From assembly GCF_031624495.1 (NCBI RefSeq), contig NZ_JAMQOP010000001.1:434001-498000 (forward strand): 64,000 bases of DNA, written 5' to 3'. This document shows, in pieces, positions 9,848 through 27,861 of this stretch. How positions within the stretch are numbered: the first letter of the stretch is position 1; every line of letters starts with the position of its first letter. The notes beneath the pieces were generated by a model. It searched no databases and was not told where the DNA came from. It saw nothing but the letters and a program-made list of their open reading frames with translations. This DNA is from Halogeometricum sp. S1BR25-6. Its GTDB lineage: Archaea > Halobacteriota > Halobacteria > Halobacteriales > Haloferacaceae. A program made the translations under genes and the position numbers.

Positions 9848-11263
9848 ATGAGAGCCCTCCCCGCCGTGTTCGTCGCGGTCCTCGTGCTTTCGACCGTCGT
9901 CGGAGCGGCGGCGCCGGGGGCGACCCCGGTCGCGGACGGGACCGGCGTCGCCTCCGCTACTCCCGCCGCCCCTGCCGCCGCCGACTCCGACTCCGCTCCC
10001 GCAACCGTCGGCGCTCCCGCCGCGGGCGCGTCGGCGCAGGTCGGCGTCCCGACGACGCAACTGGCCTCGAACGAGACGGCGAGCAATGCGACCCTCCACG
10101 TGCTCGGGGTTCCGCCCGACCGGGTGAACCGAAGCTCCCTGGAGGGGCGAACGGTCGACTTGGGTCCGGCGCTCGCCTTCGAGGACAACGAGACGAAGCT
10201 GACCATCGAGACGCTCGCGGCCGTCGAGCGGATTCGGTCGGCCGACACGGAGGACCGCCGACAACAGGTGATTCTCCAGGAACTGACGACCATCGAACAG
10301 CGCATCATCTCGCTGCGCTCGCGCCAGCAGGCGGCCATCAGCGCCTACGGGGCAGGGGACCTGACGCCGCGGCGCTTCCTCGTCCGCCTCGCCGTCATCG
10401 ACCTGGAGGCGCGAGCGCTCGACGAGCGCAGACAGCGAATCGACGCCTCAGCCGAGTCGATATCCGACTTCTCGGTCGAGTCTCGGTCCGCGACGCTCGA
10501 ACGCGAACTCGACACGTTCACCGGACCGGTGCGACAGCACGCCGTCAGCGTCCTGCAGGGGGACGCCGAGCGCGCGCGCTTCTTCCTCCAGACCGGCCCC
10601 GACAGCGTTGTCGCCACCACCATCAGAAACGAGACGTACGTCCGCGAGGCGTACCGCGAGGACCTGCGAGCGCGCGGCACCGGAATCATCACGCTCGACG
10701 AGGCCCTCAACAACACCACGCAGGCGTACCCCTACATCAGCGCGCTGGGACTGCGCGAGAGCGGAACCAGCGTCTCCGGCACCCGACAGGGCGACAACAG
10801 CGTCCTCGTCCGCATCCAGCACGAACGCGGACAGTTGTACGCGTTCGTCGACAGCGGCTCGAAGCAGGTGTTCAAGGAGTTCCAGTACCGCCCGCTCGAC
10901 ACCCTCCGGACGACGCCCACCGACGGCGCGGTGAAGGACGGCCTCGAACTCACCGCCCACCAGACGTACGCCGGCGGTCCCGTCCGCATCCAACTGAACC
11001 GGACCGACTCCGACCGACCCGCGAACGCCCGCATCACCGTCGGCCCGCAGAACGGACAGAGCGCCGTCGTCGGCGAGACGGGCGACGACGGAACGCTGTG
11101 GACGATGGCGCCCGGACGGACCTACCAGGTGACCGCCATCAGGGGGAACTCGGTCGTCGTCCTGACCGTCCGGCCCGAGGCCCCGCCGCTCGTGAACCAG
11201 ACGACGAGCGGCGCCGAGAACGCCACCGCGTCGCAGGCCCCCCGGTCCCCGTCCGACGCCTGA
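9848..11263 (+). CDS. Secreted haloarchaeal protein of unknown function
   Basis: 471 residues. A signal peptide (MRALPAVFVAVLVLSTVVGA) is followed by an Ala/Pro/Thr-rich stretch. A long helical region comes next (about 110-250: TIETLAAVERIRSADTEDRR and LTTIEQRIISLRSRQQAA), then a beta-rich C-terminal half. It has several NXS/T sequons (NETAS, NATL, NRSS). It is probably cell-surface or periplasmic. I recall similar haloarchaeal DUF proteins, but no function is known to me. The ATG at 9848 starts the signal peptide exactly; the GTG three codons earlier is less likely. Confidence 0.75.
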   Translation: MRALPAVFVAVLVLSTVVGAAAPGATPVADGTGVASATPAAPAAADSDSAPATVGAPAAGASAQVGVPTTQLASNETASNATLHVLGVPPDRVNRSSLEGRTVDLGPALAFEDNETKLTIETLAAVERIRSADTEDRRQQVILQELTTIEQRIISLRSRQQAAISAYGAGDLTPRRFLVRLAVIDLEARALDERRQRIDASAESISDFSVESRSATLERELDTFTGPVRQHAVSVLQGDAERARFFLQTGPDSVVATTIRNETYVREAYREDLRARGTGIITLDEALNNTTQAYPYISALGLRESGTSVSGTRQGDNSVLVRIQHERGQLYAFVDSGSKQVFKEFQYRPLDTLRTTPTDGAVKDGLELTAHQTYAGGPVRIQLNRTDSDRPANARITVGPQNGQSAVVGETGDDGTLWTMAPGRTYQVTAIRGNSVVVLTVRPEAPPLVNQTTSGAENATASQAPRSPSDA

Positions 11264-20799: not shown

Positions 20800-22227
20800 A
20801 TGAAAGAGTATCAAACGATATCCGAGATCAGCGGTCCGCTGGTGTTCGCCGAGGTCGACGAGCCGATCGGATACGACGAAATCGTCGAGATCGAGACGCC
20901 GGAGGGCGAGACCAAGCGCGGTCAGGTGCTCGAATCCTCCGAGGGCGTCGTCGCCATCCAAGTGTTCGAAGGCACCACCGGCATCGACAAGAACGCGTCT
21001 GTCCGGTTCCTGGGCGAGACGCTGAAGATGCCCGTCACCGAGGACCTCCTCGGACGGGTCCTCGACGGTTCCGGACAACCCATCGACGGCGGTCCGGAGA
21101 TCGTTCCCGACGAGCGACACGACATCGTCGGCGCGGCCATCAACCCCTACTCCCGCGAGTACCCCGAGGAGTTCATCCAGACCGGCGTCTCCGCCGTCGA
21201 CGGGATGAACACCCTCGTCCGCGGGCAGAAGCTCCCCATCTTCTCGGGGTCGGGGCTGCCGCACAACGACCTCGCGCTCCAGATCGCCCGTCAGGCGACC
21301 GTCCCCGAAGAGGCGGCCGAAGAGGGCGAGGACGCCTCGGAGTTCGCCGTCATCTTCGGCGCGATGGGCATCACGGCCGAGGAGGCCAACGAGTTCATGG
21401 ACGACTTCGAGCGCACCGGCGCGCTGGAACGCTCGGTCGTCTTCATGAACCTCGCGGACGACCCCGCCGTCGAGCGGACGGTCACGCCGCGGATGGCGCT
21501 GACGACCGCCGAGTACCTCGCGTTCGAGAAGGGCTACCACGTGCTGGTCATCCTCACGGACATGACCAACTACTGCGAGGCGCTGCGCGAAATCGGCGCC
21601 GCCCGCGAGGAGGTCCCGGGCCGCCGTGGCTACCCCGGATACATGTACACCGACCTGGCGCAACTGTACGAACGCGCCGGTCGTATCAAGGGCCGCGAGG
21701 GGTCGGTCACGCAGATTCCCATCCTCACGATGCCGGGGGACGACGACACCCACCCCATCCCGGACCTGACCGGCTACATCACCGAGGGACAGATCATGAT
21801 GGACCGCGACCTCAACAGTCAGGGCGTCCAGCCCCCGGTCAACGTGCTGCCGTCGCTCTCCCGACTCATGGACGACGGTATCGGCGAGGGCCTGACCCGC
21901 GCCGACCACGCCGACGTCTCCGACCAGATGTACGCGGCGTACGCGGAGGGTGAGGACCTGCGCGACCTCGTGAACATCGTCGGCCGCGAGGCGCTCTCGG
22001 AACGCGACAACAAGTACCTCGACTTCGCCGACCGCTTCGAGGACGAGTTCGTCGACCAGGGTTACGACACCAACCGCTCCATCGATGAGACCGTCGAAAT
22101 CGGCTGGGACCTCCTCTCGGAGTTCCCGAAACAGGAACTCAACCGCATCGACGAGGAGTTCATCGAGGAGCACTACCGAGAAGACGGGGCGGACGAAGAG
22201 ACCGAAGAAGAAGTCACCGCCGACTGA
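20800..22227 (+). CDS. atpB: A-type ATP synthase subunit B (non-catalytic)
   Basis: 475 residues. The nucleotide fold is present, but the P-loop position reads [20 protein letters not shown], the degenerate form typical of regulatory B subunits. MSRLMDD-type and [20 protein letters not shown] motifs confirm the family. It alternates with A in the hexamer. In haloarchaea atpD usually follows closely; here a 4.9-kb phototrophy cassette intervenes. Confidence 0.97.
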
Positions 22228-22246: not shown

Positions 22247-22252
22247 TTTTTT
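22247..22252 (+). terminator. Oligo-T terminator after atpB
   Basis: A T6 run inside GTGCGGTTTTTTCC lies 20 bases after the atpB stop. It suggests that most transcription of K-E-C-F-A-B ends here and that bat has its own promoter in the remaining 75 bases (a TATA-like CGATAACC occurs near 22297). Confidence 0.5.
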
Positions 22253-22328: not shown

Positions 22329-24314
22329 ATGCCGGACGAACGTCGCCCGCGACTTCTCGTCGCCGTACACGACGACGACCTGTTCGACCGAGTCGAGCGA
22401 TGCCTCCGGTCGACCTTCGACGGCGACTGCGGCATCGTCCGACGGCACGGGGACGTCGAGGCGGTCGACTTCGACTCGTTCGACTGCGTGGTCGTCGCCG
22501 ACGACCTGCCCGACACCGACCCCGAGGCCGTCACCGCCGCCGCCGGCGACGTTCCGGTCGTCGCACTTCTCAGCCCCGAGGGCGACCACTCGGCCGAGTC
22601 CGTCCTCGCGGCGGGCGCCGCAGACGTCGTCCCCGTCACCGACACGAACCTGTTCGACCGCCTCGGCCGTCGGACCGCGAGCGTCCTCGCGTGGCGAAGC
22701 GACTACGCCACGGCGGAGCGACGAGTGACCGAGGACCTCAAGGAACGGGCGATGGACGAGGCGCCCGTCGGTATCACCATCGCGGACGCTTCGCTCCCCG
22801 ACGACCCTCTCGTCTACGTCAACGACGCGTTCGAGTCGCTGACCGGGTACGACGAGTCGGAGGCGCTGGGACGCAACTGTCGGTACCTGCAGGGTCCCGG
22901 AACGGACCCCGAACCGGTCGCCGAACTCCGCCGCGCGGTCCGCGCCGAGGGGAGCGCGTCGGTCGAACTGCTGAACTACCGGCGCGACGGCGAGACGTTC
23001 TGGAACCGCGTCGACATCGCGCCCATTCACGGCCCCGAGGGTGACCTGAGCCACTACGTGGGGTTTCAGACCGACGTTACCGACCGGGTCCGGGCCGAAC
23101 GGGCGGCCGAACACTACGCTTCGGTCGCCGACAGGGAACGCACGCGTCTCCGGGGACTCGTCGACCAGGTCGAAAACCTCCTCGTCGACGTGACGGAGGT
23201 TCTCGTGCGCGCGGAAACGCGCGCGGAACTCGAACGCGAGGTGTGCGAACGGGTCGCGGACTCGCCCTCGTACGCCTGCGCGTGGGTCGGGGACTGCGAC
23301 CTCTCGCCGGACGCCATAGTGCCGAAAGAGTGGGCGGGAGAGGCCACCACCGCGGTCGTCGGACTCCGGATCGACCGGCGGGCGGTCGACGACCCCGTCG
23401 CCCGCGCGGTTGCGACCCGGTCCGTCCAGACGATGTCGGACCCCGACGGCCGGTTTCACCCCGGCGTCGTCCTTCCGTTCGGGAGCGTCGTCGCCGTACC
23501 CTTGGTGCATTCCGAGACGCTGTACGGCGTGCTCACGGTGTACCGCGAGGGCGACGCTCCCGGCGAACCCGAACGGGTGGCGTTGGAAGCACTCGGAAGC
23601 GCCGTCGCCGCCGCCATCGACGCGTTCGAGAGTCGCCGGACGCTCGTCACCGACAGTCGCCTCGAACTCCGGATTCGAATCTCGGACGCGAACACCCCGC
23701 TGGCTCGTCTCGCACTGGCGAACGAGTGTTCGCTGCGGTACCGGGGCTCCGTCGCCCGCGACGACGGGACGGTGCTGCTCTTCGTCTCGTCGACGCCGGC
23801 CGACGCCGAACTCGTCGCCGTCGACGTTCCCGGCGTTCAGCGGGTTGTTCGCCTCAAACGCGGCGGCGGCGACACCCTCGACGAGATTCACCTCGGCTCG
23901 GGGTCGCTGCTGTCGCTGGCCGCCGAACGCGGCGCCCGCCTGACCGACCTCTCGGTCACCGAGGACGGAACGGTCGAACTCCTCGTGACCGTCACCGACC
24001 GGTCGGCGGGGCGGACGCTCCTCGACGAACTGTCGGCCGTCGCCACCGGCGTCAGACTGGACGCGATTCGGGAACGCGCGGGGCCGGCGTCGACGCCGCG
24101 GGAGTTCGTCTCGACCGTCGAGAACGAACTGACGGACCGACAGCGGACGGCCCTCCAACTGGCTCACCTCGGCGGGTTCTTCGAGTGGCCGCACGGCGTC
24201 TCGGGCGACGAACTTGCGGCGGCAATGGACATCTCCCGGTCGACGTTCCACCAGCACCTCCGAGCGGCCGAGCGGAAACTCGTCGCCGCATTTTACCGGG
24301 AAATGCCCAACTAG
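22329..24314 (+). CDS. bat: Bat-type bacterio-opsin activator with LOV, GAF and HTH_10 domains
   Basis: 661 residues. Residues 8-120: receiver-like domain without a clear phospho-acceptor pocket. Residues about 139-253: LOV domain with GRNCRYLQG (adduct Cys184), LLNYRRDG (Asn216), FWN (Asn226) and GFQTDVT (Gln247). These offsets (+32, +42, +63 from the Cys) equal those of oat phototropin LOV2 (C450, N482, N492, Q513, from memory). Residues about 275-430: coiled coil and GAF. Residues about 435-585: Bat domain. Residues about 595-650: HTH_10 (LTDRQRTALQLAHLGGFFEW; ISRSTFHQHLRAAERKL). It probably activates bop in response to light or redox state. Its stop codon overlaps the palindrome upstream of bop. 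Confidence 0.92.
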   Translation: MPDERRPRLLVAVHDDDLFDRVERCLRSTFDGDCGIVRRHGDVEAVDFDSFDCVVVADDLPDTDPEAVTAAAGDVPVVALLSPEGDHSAESVLAAGAADVVPVTDTNLFDRLGRRTASVLAWRSDYATAERRVTEDLKERAMDEAPVGITIADASLPDDPLVYVNDAFESLTGYDESEALGRNCRYLQGPGTDPEPVAELRRAVRAEGSASVELLNYRRDGETFWNRVDIAPIHGPEGDLSHYVGFQTDVTDRVRAERAAEHYASVADRERTRLRGLVDQVENLLVDVTEVLVRAETRAELEREVCERVADSPSYACAWVGDCDLSPDAIVPKEWAGEATTAVVGLRIDRRAVDDPVARAVATRSVQTMSDPDGRFHPGVVLPFGSVVAVPLVHSETLYGVLTVYREGDAPGEPERVALEALGSAVAAAIDAFESRRTLVTDSRLELRIRISDANTPLARLALANECSLRYRGSVARDDGTVLLFVSSTPADAELVAVDVPGVQRVVRLKRGGGDTLDEIHLGSGSLLSLAAERGARLTDLSVTEDGTVELLVTVTDRSAGRTLLDELSAVATGVRLDAIRERAGPASTPREFVSTVENELTDRQRTALQLAHLGGFFEWPHGVSGDELAAAMDISRSTFHQHLRAAERKLVAAFYREMPN

Positions 24315-24319
24315 TTGGG
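24306..24319. promoter_or_regulatory. Bat upstream activating sequence (palindrome CCCAACTAGTTGGG)
   Basis: A perfect 14-bp palindrome covers the last two sense codons and the stop of bat and ends 42 bases before the bop ATG. As I recall it, the consensus for the Bat UAS in Halobacterium is ACCcnactagTTnGG; this site matches all positions except the first A. No strong TATA box follows, as expected for an activator-dependent promoter. Confidence 0.75.
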
Positions 24320-24361
24320 TACACCCGACTTGTCCGCAGACGCCCCAGTAACGGATGTAGT

Positions 24362-25096
24362 ATGGCAACACCAGGCAGCGAAGCGATATGGCTGTGGATA
24401 GGCACGGCGGGGATGTTCGCGGGGACGATGTACTTCGTCGCCCGCGGGTGGGGCGTCACCGACCCGAAACAACAGTTGTTCTACGTCCTGAGCATCTTCG
24501 TGACCACCATCGCGTCCGTCTCGTACCTGATGATGGCCACGGGGTTCGGCCTGACGCAGGTCGAGGTGGGCGGCGTGATGTTGGATATCTACTGGGCGCG
24601 GTACGCCGACTGGATATTCACGACGCCGTTGCTGTTGCTCGACCTCGCGCTGTTGGCGGGGGCGAACCGTAACACGATGTACACGCTCGTGGGCCTCGAC
24701 GTGCTCATGATCGCGACCGGAGCCATCGCGGCGTTCGCCGCGTCGGCACCCGTCCGCATCGCGTGGTGGGGGGTCAGCACCGTTCTGCTGCTGTTCCTCC
24801 TGTACTTCCTCGTTCAGGCGCTGAACGAGGCGGCCGACCGGCAGACCGAGTCGGTCCGCAGTCTGACCACCAGGTTGCGCAACATGCTCATCGTGCTGTG
24901 GTTGGCCTACCCGGTCGTCTGGATACTGGGGACCGAGGGGACCATCGGCCTCCTCCCCCTGTACTACGAGACGGCCGCGTTCATGGTGCTGGACCTCGTG
25001 GCGAAGGTCGGGTTCGGCTTCATCCTCCTGCGAAGCCACAGCGTGCTCGACCAAGTCGGACAGCGGAATCCCGCCGCGACCCCTGCGGACGACTGA
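24362..25096 (+). CDS. bop: Bacteriorhodopsin-type light-driven proton pump
   Basis: 244 residues, seven TM helices. Helix C reads YWARYADWIFTTPLLLLDLA: R80, D83 (proton acceptor, BR D85), T87 (BR T89), D94 (proton donor, BR D96). Helix G has the retinal lysine K215 in DLVAKVGFG and the counterion D211. The release pair E192 and E203 is present with one extra residue in the F-G loop relative to Halobacterium BR. L91, M116 and G120 match the BR pocket, suggesting green absorption. The full D-T-D set argues for outward H+ pumping, not a sensory or chloride rhodopsin. There is no transducer gene nearby. Confidence 0.96.
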   Translation: MATPGSEAIWLWIGTAGMFAGTMYFVARGWGVTDPKQQLFYVLSIFVTTIASVSYLMMATGFGLTQVEVGGVMLDIYWARYADWIFTTPLLLLDLALLAGANRNTMYTLVGLDVLMIATGAIAAFAASAPVRIAWWGVSTVLLLFLLYFLVQALNEAADRQTESVRSLTTRLRNMLIVLWLAYPVVWILGTEGTIGLLPLYYETAAFMVLDLVAKVGFGFILLRSHSVLDQVGQRNPAATPADD

Positions 25097-25201
25097 GTCG
25101 TCCGCACGGGCGGGCTTTCGGGACTGAGAGACGACCGCAAGCGACTGTAACTCCGACCACCCGATGACAACACTTCACCGCGCCCACCGCCGGAGGCACC
25201 C

Positions 25202-26056
25202 GTGACGGCGAGACTCACGTACCTCGGCTTCCACGCCGTGTTCGTTCTCCCACCGCTCGCGGTCCTCGGACTCGTCGTCTACCGCCGCCGCGACCGAATC
25301 GCCGCCCGCGACTGGCGGGTCCGAGCGGTCGGCGCGGCCGTCCTCGCCGCCATCGCCCTCGTCTACACGACGCCGTGGGACAACTACCTCATCGCCCGCG
25401 GCGTCTGGTGGTACGGCGAGGGGACCGTCGCGGCGACGCTGTGGCGCGCGCCCGTCGAGGAGTACCTGTTCTTCGTCCTCCAACCCGTCGTCGTCGCCCT
25501 CTGGCTGTACGCCCTCCCGGCACCCGCTGGTTCCGTGGCGACGGACGGGAGAGCGGCGACGAACGGAGAAACCGTGACGGACGGGGGAGCGACGACTGCG
25601 GACGAGTCGGCGCGGGGCGGGACGCCGGCGACGACCCGGAGGTCGGCGACGACGGTCGGCGTGACGGTCCGCGACCGACTCCTCGGCGTCGCCGCCGGTC
25701 TCGCCGTCGGCGTCGTCGGCGTCGCCTGCCTCCTCGCCGGCGACGGGACGTACTACCTCGGCGCCATCCTCGCGTGGGCGGCCCCCGTGTTCGCCCTCCA
25801 GTGGGGGTTCGGGTGGCCGTATCTGTGGCGGGTCCGGCGGACGCTCGCGGCGGCCGTCGGAGTCCCGACGCTGTACTTCTGGGTCGCCGACGCGGCGGCG
25901 CTCGGACTCGGCGTTTGGCACATCTCGCCGGCGCACACCGTCGGTCTCGCCGTCGCCGGCCTTCCCCTCGAAGAGGCGACGTTCTTCCTCGTGACGAACC
26001 TGTTCGTCGTGCAGGGGCTGCTCCTGTTCCTGTGGGTGGTGGCGCGGTGGCGGTGA
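25202..26056 (+). CDS. crtY: Lycopene beta-cyclase (CarR/CrtY membrane type)
   Basis: 284 residues, GTG start with GGAGG five bases upstream. Two homologous membrane halves are present. The first has TTPWDNYLIARGVWWYG (about 56-72) and APVEEYLFFVLQP (about 83-95); the second has AGLPLEEATFFLVTN near residue 252. The PWDNY and PxEE motifs are the signature of archaeal, actinobacterial and fungal heterodimer-derived lycopene cyclases. An Ala/Thr/Asp/Gly-rich linker (about 108-155) joins the halves. The product converts lycopene to beta-carotene, the retinal precursor. Its end overlaps blh (GTGA). Confidence 0.9.
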   Translation: MTARLTYLGFHAVFVLPPLAVLGLVVYRRRDRIAARDWRVRAVGAAVLAAIALVYTTPWDNYLIARGVWWYGEGTVAATLWRAPVEEYLFFVLQPVVVALWLYALPAPAGSVATDGRAATNGETVTDGGATTADESARGGTPATTRRSATTVGVTVRDRLLGVAAGLAVGVVGVACLLAGDGTYYLGAILAWAAPVFALQWGFGWPYLWRVRRTLAAAVGVPTLYFWVADAAALGLGVWHISPAHTVGLAVAGLPLEEATFFLVTNLFVVQGLLLFLWVVARWR

Positions 26057-27081
26057 CGACGTCCATCGCCGGCCCGGTCCGCCGGCGTCTCGCCCGTACC
26101 GTGTTTCCCCTCCCGTGGGCCGCCCTCGCCGCCGCAATCGTCGCGTCGCTGCTCGGCTTCGCCCTCGACGGCCCGGCGCGGTACGCGCCGCTGCTGCTCT
26201 CGGTCGTCGTGCTCGGACTGCCGCACGGGGCGCTCGACCACCTGACGCTCCCGCGCGCCCGCGGCGCGCGCCCGACCTCCCGCTCGCTCGCCGCGGTCGG
26301 CGCGCTGTATCTCGTCCTCGGCGGCCTCTACGCCGCGGGGTGGTTCCTCGCTCCCGCGGCCGCCTTCGTCGCCTTTCTCGCGCTCACGTGGGTCCACTGG
26401 GGGCAGGGCGACGTCTACTCGCTCGTCGCCCTCTCCCGGGAGACGCACCTGCGAACGCGCGGGCAGCGTCTCCTCGCGGCCGCCGTCCGCGGCGGGATTC
26501 CGATGGTGGTCCCCCTCGTCGGCTTCCCCGAAACGTACCGGGCCGTCGCGGCGACGACGGCGGGACTGTTCGTCTCGGGGGCGTCGTTCGCGTGGCTTCT
26601 CGCCCCGTCGGTTCGCCTCGTCGCCGGGGGAGCGGTAGCGCTTCTGACCGTCGCCTCGCTGTTGCTCGGCCGCGCGCGCGCCGACGACTCCGCGTCGCGC
26701 GACGCGTGGCGACTCGACGCCGGCGAGTCGCTCCTGCTGTGGGCGTTCTTCCTCGCGGTTCCGCCGCTCGTCGCCATCGGACTCTACTTCGCGCTGTGGC
26801 ACTCGCTGCGACATCTGGCGCGACTCGCGGCCCTCGACCCGTCGCTCTCGCCCGCCCTCCGCCGCGGACGCCCGCTCTCCGTGGTCGTCGGCCTCGGTCG
26901 CGACGCCCTCCCGCTGACTCTCGGGGCGGTGATACTTCTGGCCGGCCTCGCGGCGGCCGTGCCGGCGGGCGTCGGGAGCGTCGACGCCGTCGCGTCCGTC
27001 TCCCTCGTCCTTCTCGCCGTGCTCACCCTCCCGCACGTCGTCGTCGTCTCCTGTCTGGACCGGGTGCAGGGGCTCTGGTGA
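26053..27081 (+). CDS. blh: Brp/Blh family beta-carotene 15,15'-dioxygenase
   Basis: 342 residues, mostly membrane helices. Probable iron-binding histidines are H58 (GLPHGALDH), H115 (LTWVHWGQGD), H250 and H254 (LWHSLRHLARL). Their spacing (57 between the first two, 4 between the last two) equals that of marine Blh (H21, H78, H188, H192 as I recall). The enzyme splits beta-carotene into two retinals for the opsin. The GTG start overlaps the crtY stop by 4 bases, so the two are co-translated. A GTG two codons earlier is an alternative. Confidence 0.92.
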   Translation: MTTSIAGPVRRRLARTVFPLPWAALAAAIVASLLGFALDGPARYAPLLLSVVVLGLPHGALDHLTLPRARGARPTSRSLAAVGALYLVLGGLYAAGWFLAPAAAFVAFLALTWVHWGQGDVYSLVALSRETHLRTRGQRLLAAAVRGGIPMVVPLVGFPETYRAVAATTAGLFVSGASFAWLLAPSVRLVAGGAVALLTVASLLLGRARADDSASRDAWRLDAGESLLLWAFFLAVPPLVAIGLYFALWHSLRHLARLAALDPSLSPALRRGRPLSVVVGLGRDALPLTLGAVILLAGLAAAVPAGVGSVDAVASVSLVLLAVLTLPHVVVVSCLDRVQGLW

Positions 27082-27162
27082 GGCCGATTCGCGGCGGACG
27101 CGACGCGTCGCTCGCGAGGACTGAAAAGGATTAACCCCCTCCGTCCACAACGTTCCCGCAAG

Positions 27163-27861
27163 ATGGCCGAAGACGTCAAACCGACTCGCAAGAACCTGAT
27201 GGCGATCGAGGACCGCATCGAACTCTCCGAGCGGGGCCACGACACGCTCGAACAGAAGCGAGACGGTCTCATCATGGAGTTCATGGACATCCTGGACCAG
27301 GCGCAGGACGTCCGTTCGGAACTCAACGGCAACTACGAGACGGCCCAATCGAAGATCAACATGGCCCGCGCGATGGAGGGCGACGTGGCCGTCCGCGGCG
27401 CCGCCGCGGCGCTGAAAGAGCACCCCGAGATCACGACGCAGTCGAAGAACATCATGGGCGTCGTCGTCCCGCAGATAGAATCTTCGCGTGTGAAGAAGTC
27501 GCTCGACCAGCGCGGGTACGGCCTGCTCGGTTCCTCGGCCCGCATCGACGAGGCGGCCGACGCCTACGAGGACCTCCTCGAATCCATCATCCTCGCCGCC
27601 GAGGTGGAGACGGCGATGAAGAAGATGCTCAAGGAGATAGAGACGACGAAGCGCCGCGTCAACGCCCTGGAGTTCAAACTCCTGCCCGACCTCTACGAGA
27701 ACAAGGAGTACATCGAGCAGAAACTCGAAGAGCAGGAGCGCGAGGAGATATTCCGCCTGAAGAAGATCAAGGCGAAGAAGGAAGAAGAGGAGAAGGCCGA
27801 ACGCGAGGAAGCCGAACAGAACGAGACGTCCGTCGCCGAGAGCGTCCCCGCGGACGACTGA
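27163..27861 (+). CDS. atpD: A-type ATP synthase subunit D
   Basis: 232 residues: long N- and C-terminal helices forming the rotor shaft ([40 protein letters not shown]) with a Glu/Lys-rich C-terminus. The NALEF-LLP motif is diagnostic for subunit D. It lies 81 bases after blh and 4.9 kb from atpB, yet on the same strand. It may use its own weak promoter (GGATTAACC near 27131). Confidence 0.96.

Follow-up and report, generated by a model that had tools for sequence, protein, structure and literature searches.

The phototrophy genes found between the ATP synthase genes atpB and atpD of Halogeometricum sp. S1BR25-6 raise the question of whether a light-driven proton pump and the consumer of its gradient are bound by common expression and descent or are neighbours on the chromosome with separate control and separate histories. 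In haloarchaea that have a bop gene it usually lies between the genes of the B and D subunits, either by itself or accompanied by crtY, bat and blh, while some strains carry bat without bop, and random insertion was proposed to account for this (Verma et al. 2020; PMC7755889). The linkage was noted in Haloarcula by Sharma et al. 2007 (PMC1885257). It was thus already reported in 2020 and the cassette described here is no first discovery: it is real, complete and ordinary in kind, and it is its comparative detail that is informative.

The window, the whole stretch of 64,000 nucleotides that was analysed, codes on its forward strand for atpB, bat, bop, crtY, blh and atpD in this order, every gene being confirmed by its translation and by family scans. 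The left flank, atpB (20800..22227), encodes subunit B of the A-type ATP synthase (TIGR01041, 860.7 bits) and is closely followed by a T-run (22247..22252) that reads as a candidate archaeal terminator. The activator gene bat (22329..24314; PF15915, PF04967, PF13426) precedes bop (24362..25096), crtY (25202..26056), coding for a lycopene beta-cyclase (TIGR03462, 142 bits), and blh (26053..27081), coding for a beta-carotene 15,15'-dioxygenase of the Brp/Blh family (TIGR03753, 235 bits; PF15461, 250 bits). The right flank, atpD (27163..27861), encodes subunit D (NF001542, 371.6 bits). The crtY and blh coding sequences overlap by 4 nt (GTGA, 26053-26056), blh and atpD are separated by 81 nt, and atpB and atpD by 4,935 nt. 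The preliminary description of this DNA, which saw here a complete same-strand cassette of activator, proton pump, beta-carotene enzyme and retinal enzyme physically linked to the ATP synthase genes, is borne out by the identities and positions of the genes.

Bat has the domains of its activator family, PAS/LOV, GAF, BAT and HTH_10. The best matches of its LOV region are LOV structures: residues ~134-266 resemble the domains of blue-light receptors such as phototropins, aureochrome and EL222 (E 2.3e-38). The signature GRNCRYLQG holds the NCR(F/Y)LQ motif with the adduct-forming cysteine, which is found in 20 of 22 Bats encoded in the interval. Flavin binding by Bat was already described (Tarasov et al. 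2011), and light may act through this cysteine. As in EL222-type light-activated factors, a LOV sensor and a DNA-binding helix-turn-helix are combined in one protein; Bat differs from them by its additional GAF and BAT domains and by the archaeal type of its HTH_10. Bat is one member of a large family of paralogues, so that a bat found alone in the interval means a Bat-like gene. Such a lone intact gene lies between atpB and atpD in each of the nine surveyed genomes of genus g7 (L041-L044, L237-L241), eight of which have no detectable bop-like gene while the ninth (G192) has one on another contig. The LOV cysteine motif was present in the four g7 Bats checked (4/4), and dN/dS values of ~0.23-0.37 among the four compared imply purifying selection.

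The bop product is, by family and residues, a bacteriorhodopsin-type proton pump, pumping being predicted, and it is the sole rhodopsin found in the genome. The seven-helix rhodopsin (PF01036, 216.5 bits) aligns with deltarhodopsin and bacteriorhodopsin, with the donor and acceptor aspartates and the retinal lysine in place; the bacteriorhodopsin residues YWARYADW..TTPLLLLDL and the D...K region of the retinal lysine are kept. Its closest relative of solved structure is deltarhodopsin (4fbz, E 7.6e-96), a kinship also seen in the bop tree, where most Natrialbaceae-type relatives differ from the window in carrying bop away from the atp locus. At the end of the gene a perfect 10-bp hairpin (25084..25106, fold -35.1 kcal/mol) has the bop stop codon in its loop and is a candidate 3' end or stability element. 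Conservation of this hairpin was rejected, as it is strong in the window (z -4.2) but missing from most relatives.

A candidate control element is visible in the sequence before bop. The palindrome CCCAACTAGTTGGG (24306..24319), which resembles the Bat upstream activator sequence (UAS), agrees with the consensus used here at 12 of 12 positions; it overlaps the TAG stop codon of bat (24312-24314), ending 42 nt before the bop ATG. Among the bop genes of the interval, 15 of 31 have an element scoring at least 10/12 against this consensus, all at -54 to -58, while a good match is missing in the other 16, including all those of genus g37. No Bat element above background was found before bat or before atpD: across the 181 atpD upstream regions the score peaks at 9, a value reached by only five, and none is of bop quality. 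Scans of the window for bacterial promoters and terminators gave nothing useful, the models being bacterial and the DNA archaeal. The bop regulon of Halobacterium salinarum comprises bat-brp-bop, brz and brb. It shares with the window the Bat activator, the pump, a retinal enzyme and the Bat-type upstream element, but its bop lies at another locus, and extra crtY and blh genes are retained in Halobacterium between atpB and atpD (Verma et al. 2020; PMC7755889).

How common the arrangement is was assessed in 192 haloarchaeal genomes, that is, the atpD-upstream regions of 191 genomes, located through atpD, and the window. The first 181 were classified earlier and the last 11 were picked for closer study and are hence not a random sample. 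The full bat-bop-crtY-blh series in order occurs in 15 of the 192, distributed over five families (four genera of f1, and f4, f6, f7 and f12), and 40 more have a partial set in the same order. The partial sets (bat-bop-crtY, bop-crtY-blh, crtY-blh, bat-bop, bop-blh, bop, bat and blh) all lie on the atp strand. The interval thus houses, in several families, same-strand bop and accessory genes in a common order, and the idea that the cassette location in the window is unique by chance was discarded. In the first 181 genomes at least one phototrophy gene is present in the interval of 46, all four in order in 13; of the 11 added genomes, two have full cassettes, bat is the only phototrophy gene of the interval in five and bop in two, and the other two lack an intact gene there. 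The view that the two subunit genes normally lie close together holds in part: without phototrophy genes between them, atpB and atpD are separated by at most 600 nt in 60 of the 181 genomes, but the gap is longer in 53, and atpB is missing from the 11 kb next to atpD in a further 22.

Some other features of the atp loci were recorded during the survey. One f6 genome (G062; C3:377113-377847, 380599-381288) has bop on the same strand downstream of atpD and lacks an atpB in the 11 kb that precede atpD. Several genomes, for example G325 (C7:17792-18433) and G278 (C28:268206-268859), contain a further atpD homologue that is only distantly related (32-36% identity), which suggests a second A-type ATPase. 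In locus L242 (G086) atpA is split by ~1.5 kb of extra sequence, the protein ends overlapping, possibly through an intein or an assembly problem.

The gene set of the interval differs between genomes, both in our survey and in the earlier one, and this is the observation behind the proposal of Verma et al. 2020 that the genes entered singly and at random (PMC7755889). Such piecemeal entry is hard to reconcile with partial sets that all keep the bat-bop-crtY-blh order and the atp orientation, and congeners of the window point to breakdown of a complete block. In this genus the cassette is complete in G325, absent from G323 and G287, and reduced to remnants in G324: between its atpB and atpD (L235, oriented 10776-10915) the last 20 blh codons are found together with a 98-bp match to crtY. 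Because these remnants sit beside an AtpD 100% identical to that of the window, comparison of the two loci shows that the cassette was lost in G324 and left a deletion scar. In G287 homology to the window is lost shortly beyond the atpB stop codon and is regained exactly at GACTGAAAAGGATTAAC (27119..27135, +), a conserved promoter-like motif ahead of atpD that marks the right boundary of the cassette.

The descent of the block was addressed with gene trees of the 13 genomes with a full cassette in the comparison set, the flanks being represented by the atpABD topology. Every cassette gene rejects this topology (delta lnL of 161 for bat, 125 for bop, 75 for crtY and 73 for blh; AU p <=0.015 each). 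A joint cassette topology is accepted by bat, bop and crtY, blh rejecting it marginally in the AU test (0.03) but not in the SH test (0.39). The four genera of f1 are united in the atp tree, yet the g1 and g17 cassettes fall with the f6 cassette; the window has atp genes that group with family f1 and a cassette that groups with family f6. By these trees the four cassette genes have one common history that is at odds with their atp flanks. The co-inheritance anticipated in the preliminary description therefore applies to the four genes with one another and, in the strict sense, fails for the ATP synthase. Together with the G324 remnants of crtY and blh, the far better match of the four gene trees to each other than to the flanks leaves the one-by-one entry of genes with only a very slight likelihood.

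A cassette that the haloarchaeal ancestor already carried at this site, inherited vertically and lost many times independently, would agree with the wide spread over families, the fixed order and the scar in G324. It is an improbable account, since the cassette trees strongly reject an atp-flank tree that does recover f1, and since the wider bop tree has two lineages at the same interval site, both occurring within f1. The lineage of the window bop also includes deltarhodopsin-type pumps encoded elsewhere in the genome. Because of the conflict between cassette and flank trees we infer exchange of the cassette as a block at this site, with homologous recombination in the conserved atp genes on either side as its most likely route.

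There remains the question of whether the phototrophy genes and atpD could form one expression unit in which pump and consumer are induced together. Their common strand, the 81 nt between blh and atpD and the recurrence of phototrophy genes at this site in several families are compatible with it, and joint expression of HmBRI with the adjoining ATPase genes has been suggested as a possibility (Verma et al. 2020; PMC7755889). Yet the promoter-like motif before atpD is also conserved in genomes that have no cassette. The motif, whose pattern was chosen after inspecting the sequences, is present in 43 of the 46 genomes whose interval contains phototrophy genes and in 38 of 47 that lack them and have a gap of 100-600 nt, whereas shuffles predict about one match in each of these large groups. 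It is found in none of the 13 genomes where atpD abuts atpB (gap <100 nt), in which atpD probably shares the atpB transcript. In the window atpD thus has its own promoter-like motif and no UAS, the reverse of what is expected of a member of a light-coupled operon. RNA-seq of Haloquadratum walsbyi identifies atpD as a monocistronic unit, a comparison limited by the position of its bop genes away from the atpB-atpD interval (PMC5496347). Any coupling would, moreover, be limited to one of the ATP synthase genes. A single light-regulated unit is very improbable on these grounds, and the co-regulation of atpD with the cassette that had been suggested for this locus is unsupported: the conserved motif, the restart of homology at it in G287 and the Haloquadratum transcript make it unlikely.

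The reading that we consider probable is that of a separately controlled phototrophy cassette at a reused chromosomal site, lost or exchanged as a block. LOV-Bat would act as a one-component regulator that turns on bop under light and low oxygen by binding the palindrome at the 3' end of bat, as its domains and the Halobacterium system suggest. By the function of their families, CrtY would make beta-carotene, from which Blh, by cleavage, would supply the pump with retinal. A separate promoter at the right edge of the cassette would drive atpD, as the conserved motif there indicates, so that presence or absence of the cassette would leave the ATP synthase undisturbed. The four genes would travel together, the block being at times lost with scars and at times exchanged in place for another version, probably through recombination in the highly conserved flanks. 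A broader proposal, in which the interval is a haloarchaea-wide slot that swaps whole phototrophy blocks between families through recombination in the conserved ATP synthase genes, and in which blue-light LOV-Bats orphaned by loss of the opsin, such as those of g7, are re-used for other light control, appears rather unlikely.

The locus resembles the known bop loci between atpB and atpD, those of Haloarcula HmBRI and Haloarcula japonica, in site, genes and variable content (PMC7755889, PMC1885257). The earlier papers regarded insertion as random and suggested that HmBRI lacks its own promoter, whereas the present comparison finds a fixed gene order, a history peculiar to the block, and distinct control elements visible for bop and for atpD. 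The view of random insertion may therefore be replaced by a testable one, of a single ordered block that occupies one site, is exchanged as a whole and is occasionally lost with a scar, bop and atpD each having a promoter of their own. It would provide a simple case of a complete energy-gaining trait swapped between distant archaeal lineages through conserved flanks.
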